A stretch of DNA of 64,000 nt. Source: Motilimonas sp. E26 (GTDB lineage: Bacteria > Pseudomonadota > Gammaproteobacteria > Enterobacterales > CBDFNC01). Positions 48,838 to 50,550 of the stretch are shown here, one piece after another (the first letter of the stretch is position 1; every line of letters starts with the position of its first letter). Location of the stretch: contig NZ_JAIBHJ010000009.1 in assembly GCF_021278025.1 (NCBI RefSeq), positions 1 to 64,000 on the forward strand, given 5' to 3'. A program made the translations under genes and the position numbers. Below the pieces are notes generated by a model that saw only the letters and a list, made by a program, of their open reading frames with translations, was not told where the DNA came from and searched no databases.

Positions 48838-49138
48838 GGTTTTCCCTTATATTTAGCCTCGCAGGAAGCAAAAAGATGTTTAACAGGATGTTGAACGTCG
48901 ATGTCGGACAGGATGTTTGACAATCAAGGAAGAAGTAAGGACAACTGCAGGATGCAGTAAGGGACACCTCCAGGATGGAGAGAGAAAGCAAATCAGGATG
49001 ATTTGTTAGGTTATGGATAACCGAGAAATGCAACCAAAGGATAGGCTGCTAACATAGTCAAAGTGCAGGGAGCACCATACATCACGGAGTAGATGTTATG
49101 ACTATCAGGGGCGATGTTGAAAAACATCGCCCCTTTTC
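48838..49138 (+). ncRNA. csrB: CsrB-type regulatory RNA (CsrA/RsmA sponge)
   Basis: About 300 bases with repeated CsrA-binding GGA motifs, many as CAGGATG or AGGA in loops: GGA at about 48864, 48886, 48906, 48911, 48928, 48939, 48949, 48962, 48973, 48996, 49015 and 49039. The stretch GGGACACCTCCAGGATGGAG and then TCAGGATGATTTG matches E. coli CsrB almost base for base. It ends in a strong terminator. The RNA should sequester CsrA and so antagonise it in carbon storage, motility and biofilm control. The 5' end is estimated; the promoter is not clear. No gene is seen between 48392 and the RNA. Confidence 0.88.
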
Positions 49139-49140
49139 TT
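49108..49140 (+). terminator. Terminator of the CsrB-type RNA
   Basis: GGGGCGATGTT (49108-49118), loop GAAA, AACATCGCCCC (49123-49133), then TTTTCTT. A perfect 11-bp stem. Confidence 0.92.
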
Positions 49141-49150
49141 TGCCTGAAAT

Positions 49151-49781: not shown

Positions 49782-49810
49782 TTGCAAATGATAATTAATA
49801 TCATTAGTAT
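49782..49810 (+). promoter_or_regulatory. Fur-box promoter of the first RyhB-type RNA
   Basis: -35 TTGCAA (49782-49787), a 17-bp spacer and -10 TAGTAT (49805-49810). The spacer contains TGATAAT-T-AATATCA (49789-49803), a 7-1-7 Fur box, so Fur-Fe would block polymerase directly. Confidence 0.78.
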
Positions 49811-49816
49811 CTATCT

Positions 49817-49935
49817 CGTTGTCCAAGCACTCCTAAAGCGACGAGCTAATCATGGCTTAATGTTCTAGGCAAATGGCACGACATTGCTCACATTGCTTCC
49901 AGTTTGCCGACTATTCTTATAGTCGGCTTTTTTTT
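49817..49935 (+). ncRNA. ryhB: RyhB-type iron-responsive sRNA, copy 1
   Basis: Contains GCACGACATTGCTCACATTG plus CTTCCAG (49876-49902), identical to the pairing core of enterobacterial RyhB. It is followed by the terminator GCCGACTAT-TCTT-ATAGTCGGC (49906-49927) and eight T. The Fur box in the promoter fits synthesis under iron limitation, when RyhB represses iron-using proteins and frees siderophore genes. About 119 nt, longer than the 90-nt E. coli form because of extra 5' sequence. The start is inferred from the promoter. Confidence 0.88.
49906..49935 (+). terminator. Terminator of RyhB copy 1
   Basis: GCCGACTAT (49906-49914), loop TCTT, ATAGTCGGC (49919-49927), then eight T. Confidence 0.9.
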
Positions 49936-49985
49936 ACTTAAATTTCAAATACAAAGAAAGTATCTAAAGTTATTTACTTTGTAAA

Positions 49986-50000
49986 TGATATTTATTATCA
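49986..50000. promoter_or_regulatory. Second Fur box
   Basis: TGATATT-T-ATTATCA, a 7-1-7 Fur box with one mismatch to the inverted-repeat consensus, between the two RyhB-type cores. TTGTAA (49979-49984) and TTGGCA (50010-50015, with AAATAT at 50033-50038 after 17 bp) are possible -35 boxes. Confidence 0.7.
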
Positions 50001-50044
50001 TTTGATTTGTTGGCACGGCAGATTTTTTTAACAAATATCTTTTA

Positions 50045-50122
50045 CAGGTTTTTGTATCGCTTTCTGTTTTAGTGCAAGCACGACATTGCTCACATTGCTT
50101 TTTCTCAGCGTTTCGTTGAGTT
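50045..50122 (+). ncRNA. RyhB-type sRNA, copy 2 (possibly decayed)
   Basis: The same 20-base core GCACGACATTGCTCACATTG (from 50078) recurs here, about 200 bp after copy 1. It is followed by CTCAGCG-TTT-CGTTGAG (50104-50120), a 7-bp hairpin with one G-U pair, but the T-tract is short (TTT then GGGGG). The upstream Fur box is good and the promoter weaker than for copy 1. Either a second functional paralogue, as in Salmonella RyhB-1/RyhB-2, or a decaying duplicate. Ends are estimates. Confidence 0.6.
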
Positions 50123-50550
50123 TGGGGGCTACTTGCATGATGGCTTCTGTCATTCACTATCCAGCCAGAGTGTAAGTAGTGCCCACCTCTTTTCTTTCTG
50201 TCATTTATTCCACGATATATCTCACTTTAAAACCGCCTTCACTTTAGATTTTTCAGCTGAATTTTAATGAGTTTTACAGAGTTTGAAAAAATTCAAGAAA
50301 TCTTTTCCACAATTATTATATTTTTATGCTTTATTTTAGGAAGTAACTTTAAAGGTTATTATTTTTATTTTTCAGTCACTTATCTTTTTGTACTAGTACT
50401 TTATTATGTAAATGTTACAGATGAGACGTTTTTGTGAACAGAGATATCCACAGGCTATCGCTATTGAAAATAAAAAAAACAGGTTCAAACATAGAGCCTA
50501 GGCGGGGCTTGTGGCATCCTAGCAACATCATTTTTCAATAGACGCTTTTT
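50123..50550. other. AT-rich leader region upstream of polA
   Basis: 428 bp without a supported gene. Two DnaA-box-like sequences with one mismatch each (TTTTCCACA near 50305, ATATCCACA near 50449) are too few and isolated to claim an origin. Confidence 0.4.

Follow-up and report, generated by a model that had tools for sequence, protein, structure and literature searches.

Tandem ryhB genes were published for Shewanella amazonensis and likened there to the tandem sRNAs of Pseudomonas aeruginosa, and long RyhB forms are known from S. oneidensis (168 nt) and V. cholerae (215 nt) (PMC2964681). The sibling RNAs of Salmonella (RyhB-1 and RyhB-2, or RfrA and RfrB) and of Yersinia (RyhB1 and RyhB2) are encoded at distant chromosomal sites (PMC4211561). 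Here we describe a locus upstream of polA in Motilimonas sp. E26 that, judging from its sequence, likely encodes two sibling Fur-repressed, iron-sparing sRNAs with one seed, one of them short and the other long.

Results

Two RyhB cores, each behind a Fur box

The window, which is the whole 64-kb stretch of DNA that was analyzed, comes from a 4.63-Mb genome (G000) that we compared with three congeners (G001, G002, and G003). The family is small, with four genomes in one genus, and belongs to the same order as Moritella. The first copy and the control region and core of the second are composed as follows.

49783 to 49811, + strand: promoter 1 as read from the sequence, TTGCAA, 17 nt, TAGTAT, with Fur box 1 inside the spacer
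49789 to 49803, + strand: predicted Fur box 1, TGATAATTAATATCA, 13 of 14 positions, joint best 7-1-7 match in the window, kept in four genomes
49818 to 49936, + strand: short form of RyhB (copy 1), about 119 nt from its predicted start, RF00057 match, fold z -3.3
49876 to 49895, + strand: RyhB core (seed) of copy 1, exact match
49906 to 49935, + strand: intrinsic terminator of copy 1, GC-rich 9-bp stem plus T8
49973 to 50001, + strand: putative promoter 2, TTTACT, 17 nt, TATCAT, weak, overlapping Fur box 2
49986 to 50000, + strand: predicted Fur box 2, TGATATTTATTATCA, 13 of 14 positions, joint best 7-1-7 match in the window
50078 to 50097, + strand: RyhB core (seed) of copy 2, exact at 20 of 20 positions, extended core 22 of 23 against G002

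A preliminary description of the locus had placed a 20-base RyhB core, GCACGACATTGCTCACATTG, twice on the same strand about 200 bp apart, each behind its own 7-1-7 Fur box. We found that both cores are exact and lie 202 bp apart on the + strand. Even with three mismatches allowed, 0.01 matches would be expected by chance in the window, and no further core within two mismatches was found elsewhere in the 4.63-Mb genome. When the whole window was scored at the 14 informative positions of the 7-1-7 consensus, TGATAATNATTATCA, the two predicted Fur boxes were the top two matches, and both are conserved in relatives, which bore out the description on these points. The genome carries one high-scoring Fur-family gene plus one weaker paralogue.

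The promoters were less clear-cut. A promoter-consensus scan of the region gave 4 matches against 3.1 expected, which is no better than chance. Of the strong promoter and terminator that had been ascribed to copy 1, the terminator stood; the promoter consensus is at chance level, yet TTGCAA and a TANTAT -10 element are conserved in all four genus genomes, with small changes in the -10. The promoter of copy 2 had been called weaker, and its consensus is indeed weak. The match itself is likewise at chance level, and what points to a promoter here is conservation in the alignment: the elements TTTACW and TATCRT are present in G001 and G002, and the segment with promoter and Fur box 2 is 78% identical to G002 versus 53% in the adjacent spacer.

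The weak consensus of promoter 2 and the position of both copies on the same strand, about 200 bp apart, could also mean that copy 2 is mainly a read-through product of copy 1, contained in a single transcript of about 380 nt that carries both seeds, as PrrH arises from PrrF1-PrrF2 in Pseudomonas aeruginosa (PMC4211561). We consider this quite improbable: the terminator of copy 1 is strong, and the combination of a spacer at background identity between G000 and G002 with a conserved Fur box 2 argues for separate starts. The conserved unique spacer by which a PrrF/PrrH-type locus is recognized was not seen, conservation of the spacer being at background.

Two further elements flank the pair. 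A CsrB/RsmB RNA gene at 48861-49144 (+ strand; Rfam, 110.4 bits) is located about 700 bp 5' of RyhB copy 1, and such a gene adjoins RyhB also in G001 and G002 (L003 and L004). The stretch 50430-50455, upstream of polA, contains GTGAACAGAGATATCCACA, which is DnaA-box-like and largely kept in all four genus genomes.

A standard short copy and a diverged long copy

Copy 1 has the standard short form of RyhB. A covariance-model search with the RyhB family had been proposed for both copies, and membership in this family (RF00057) was judged by its gathering cut-off of 55 bits. Copy 1 scored 60.4 bits at 49872-49932 and passed, and its terminator has the U-run looked for as an Hfq docking site. Copy 2 scored only 24.1 bits and failed, and it has the conserved seed of RyhB despite this sub-threshold score. 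Its extent and 3' features are as follows.

50009 to 50198, + strand: long form of RyhB (copy 2), about 190 nt between two predicted ends, same predicted architecture in three genomes
50104 to 50120, + strand: small hairpin, CTCAGCG-TTT-CGTTGAG, innermost pair G-C replaced by A-U in G002, outermost pair broken there
50123 to 50185, + strand: long 3' hairpin, identified by fold z and a covarying stem
50146 to 50162, + strand: 17-nt loop, TCTGTCATTCACTATCC, identical at 17 of 17 positions in G002, where the flanking stems keep 48-57%
50186 to 50198, + strand: pyrimidine tract, CTCTTTTCTTTCT, 12 of 13 positions in G002, possible 3' end

The fold of 50009-50200 had a z of -3.85, and that of 50100-50200 had a z of -5.7. 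The predicted order in three genomes is a 5' stem-loop, an open seed, the small hairpin, and the long hairpin with its 17-nt loop. The preliminary description had given copy 2 a hairpin without a good T-run. The small hairpin is present as described, but the RNA is not expected to end there, as the larger conserved hairpin that follows had been missed. A few bases 3' of the long hairpin, the pyrimidine tract takes the place of a canonical T-run; the 3' end given for copy 2 is a guess because a canonical terminator is lacking.

When the common structure was imposed on the alignment, which amounts to two independent sequences given how little G000 and G001 differ in this part, 98.6% of cells were paired, with 5 doubly compensated pairs. 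As good a result was obtained in 2 of 500 shuffles, and sliding the partners lowered pairing to 31-44%. Helices 2 and 3 of the long hairpin had 100% of cells paired and 4 doubly compensated pairs. The 3' domain of copy 2 probably stabilizes the RNA or adds a second contact.

On the other hand, the long hairpin may be separate from copy 2, either as a polA leader or as an independent sRNA, with the copy 2 RNA ending at the small hairpin near 50121. A TTT follows the small hairpin, the loop is far better conserved than its stems, and polA begins about 370 bp downstream. We regard this reading as rather unlikely, since the alignment from the core to the pyrimidine tract is gap-free in three genomes, each genome of the genus has either both the element and copy 2 or neither, and RyhB of Moritella likewise has a long hairpin 3' of its core (z, -6.3).

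Copy 2 within the genus

The preliminary description had named absence of the second core from relatives as a ground for rejecting the pair. Copy 2 was found at the same place in two of the three congeners (G001 and G002), where Fur box, core, and 3' part are all kept. G003 has neither copy 2 nor the long hairpin, and copy 2 is dispensable in that it is absent from this genome. Between G000 and G002, identity was 93% in the segment with promoter and Fur box 1, 100% in core 1, 96% in core 2, 100% in the loop, and 92% in the pyrimidine tract, against a background of 53-55% in the spacer and downstream sequence. In a sample of 394 genomes of the order, the loop motif occurred only in the three genomes that carry copy 2. 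A covariance model of the copy 2 3' domain clearly recovered only the three known copies, all other hits being at or below 19.9 bits and mostly on RyhB cores. This pattern of sequence conservation favors the view that copy 2 is a functional unit whose gain or loss took place within the genus.

Its absence from G003, its sub-threshold Rfam score, and its weak promoter would also fit a decaying duplicate without function, with an unrelated hairpin at its 3' side. This is highly improbable, as the extended core, the loop, and the pyrimidine tract are kept in G002 where neighboring sequence is only about 50-55% identical, the 3' structure shows compensatory changes, and the loop motif is confined to the genomes having copy 2.

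Predicted targets of the seed and the loop

The seed has an 8-bp perfect match, GAGCAAUG, to the sodB leader, where it covers the ribosome site (predicted energy, -17.9 kcal/mol; 3% of shuffles were as good). For the start of sdhC, the predicted energy was -23.2 kcal/mol, and 0.6% of shuffles were as good.

The complement of the copy 2 loop had 29 matches in G000 versus 35 for the reversed control pattern, showing no excess. The best start-codon match in G000 was katG, a gene for a haem enzyme (-15.9 kcal/mol), which was the top candidate in G001 as well; katG of G002 reached only -11.0 kcal/mol despite an identical loop. Because G002 katG is without the site, we claim no loop target. Other start-codon matches (rsxA-like and alkyltransferase-like, named from their translations) were limited to G000 and G001, and the strongest match in G002 (L205) was without a clear gene. 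Small proteins encoded across the loop were rejected, as the short frames on the + strand (ATGATGGCT...) and the - strand (ATGACAGAA...) lose their start or terminate early in G002. A mobile repeat was also rejected, the loop motif being single copy in each genome.

Tandem RyhB arrays in other genera

A position upstream of polA is shared by RyhB of Moritella and of some other families. In Moritella, tandem arrays of two to three cores precede polA at a spacing of 359-379 bp, with three copies in L042 and L043 and two copies in each of L044 to L047. Over aligned bases, most of the units share 85-95% identity, and all Moritella copies scanned were below the RF00057 cut-off. In Photobacterium halotolerans, we found a pair of cores at a spacing of 283 bp.

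In one Moritella (L052, near 2553, reverse strand) and in P. halotolerans (L079, 2893-2926), the RyhB seed is expanded by 9-base repeats (CACATTGCT), forming seeds that comprise two and three overlapping units.

The preliminary description had considered a tandem pair unusual. Enterobacterial siblings are indeed distal, but the arrangement is not exceptional, given S. amazonensis (PMC2964681), the Moritella arrays, and the Photobacterium pair. The tandem arrangement is thus already known, though not in the enterobacteria that the description had in mind. Tandem RyhB genes are probably underreported because the Rfam RyhB cut-off misses both copy 2 and the Moritella arrays.

Discussion

Our working model of two sibling RNAs builds on what is established for the RyhB pathway. 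With ample iron, Fe-Fur would occupy both operators and both RNAs would be silent. Under iron shortage, each promoter would fire separately, copy 1 being transcribed into about 119 nt up to the standard terminator and copy 2 into about 190 nt, in which a structured 3' domain is added to the shared seed. Through their seeds, both RNAs would base-pair at the translation starts of target mRNAs that encode iron-using proteins, sodB and sdhC among them, and would reduce their expression together with Hfq.

Tentatively, copy 2 could be bifunctional, with the seed acting in iron sparing and the invariant loop acting as a second pairing or protein-binding site with a regulon of its own. If so, one iron signal would turn on a general and a specialized RNA. 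The novelty of the locus is modest and lies in the long form of copy 2, diverged from copy 1 and equipped with a conserved 3' hairpin, which goes unrecognized in current databases. The locus is a clear natural example of sibling sRNAs in which seed and trigger are kept and the rest of the RNA has diverged.

The pair resembles RyhB of RF00057 (E. coli, Vibrio, and Shewanella) in its core, its upstream Fur box, and its predicted sodB and sdhC pairing. Unlike those RNAs, copy 2 scores below the cut-off and has, in place of the standard terminator hairpin, a covarying 3' hairpin of its own whose loop is invariant. PrrF1, PrrF2, and PrrH of Pseudomonas aeruginosa are likewise tandem, Fur-regulated, iron-sparing sRNAs with duplicated seeds, but PrrF belongs to another Rfam family (RF00444), and the spacer here is without the conservation that would suggest a PrrH. 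The seed is shared between siblings as in Salmonella and Yersinia, whose copies are at distant sites. As in S. amazonensis, Moritella, and Photobacterium halotolerans, at least two cores follow one another on a single strand, and a Fur-box-like site accompanies each. In contrast to Moritella, where similar units recur at 359-379 bp in up to three copies, the two copies here, about 200 bp apart, have clearly diverged, one being short and the other long.
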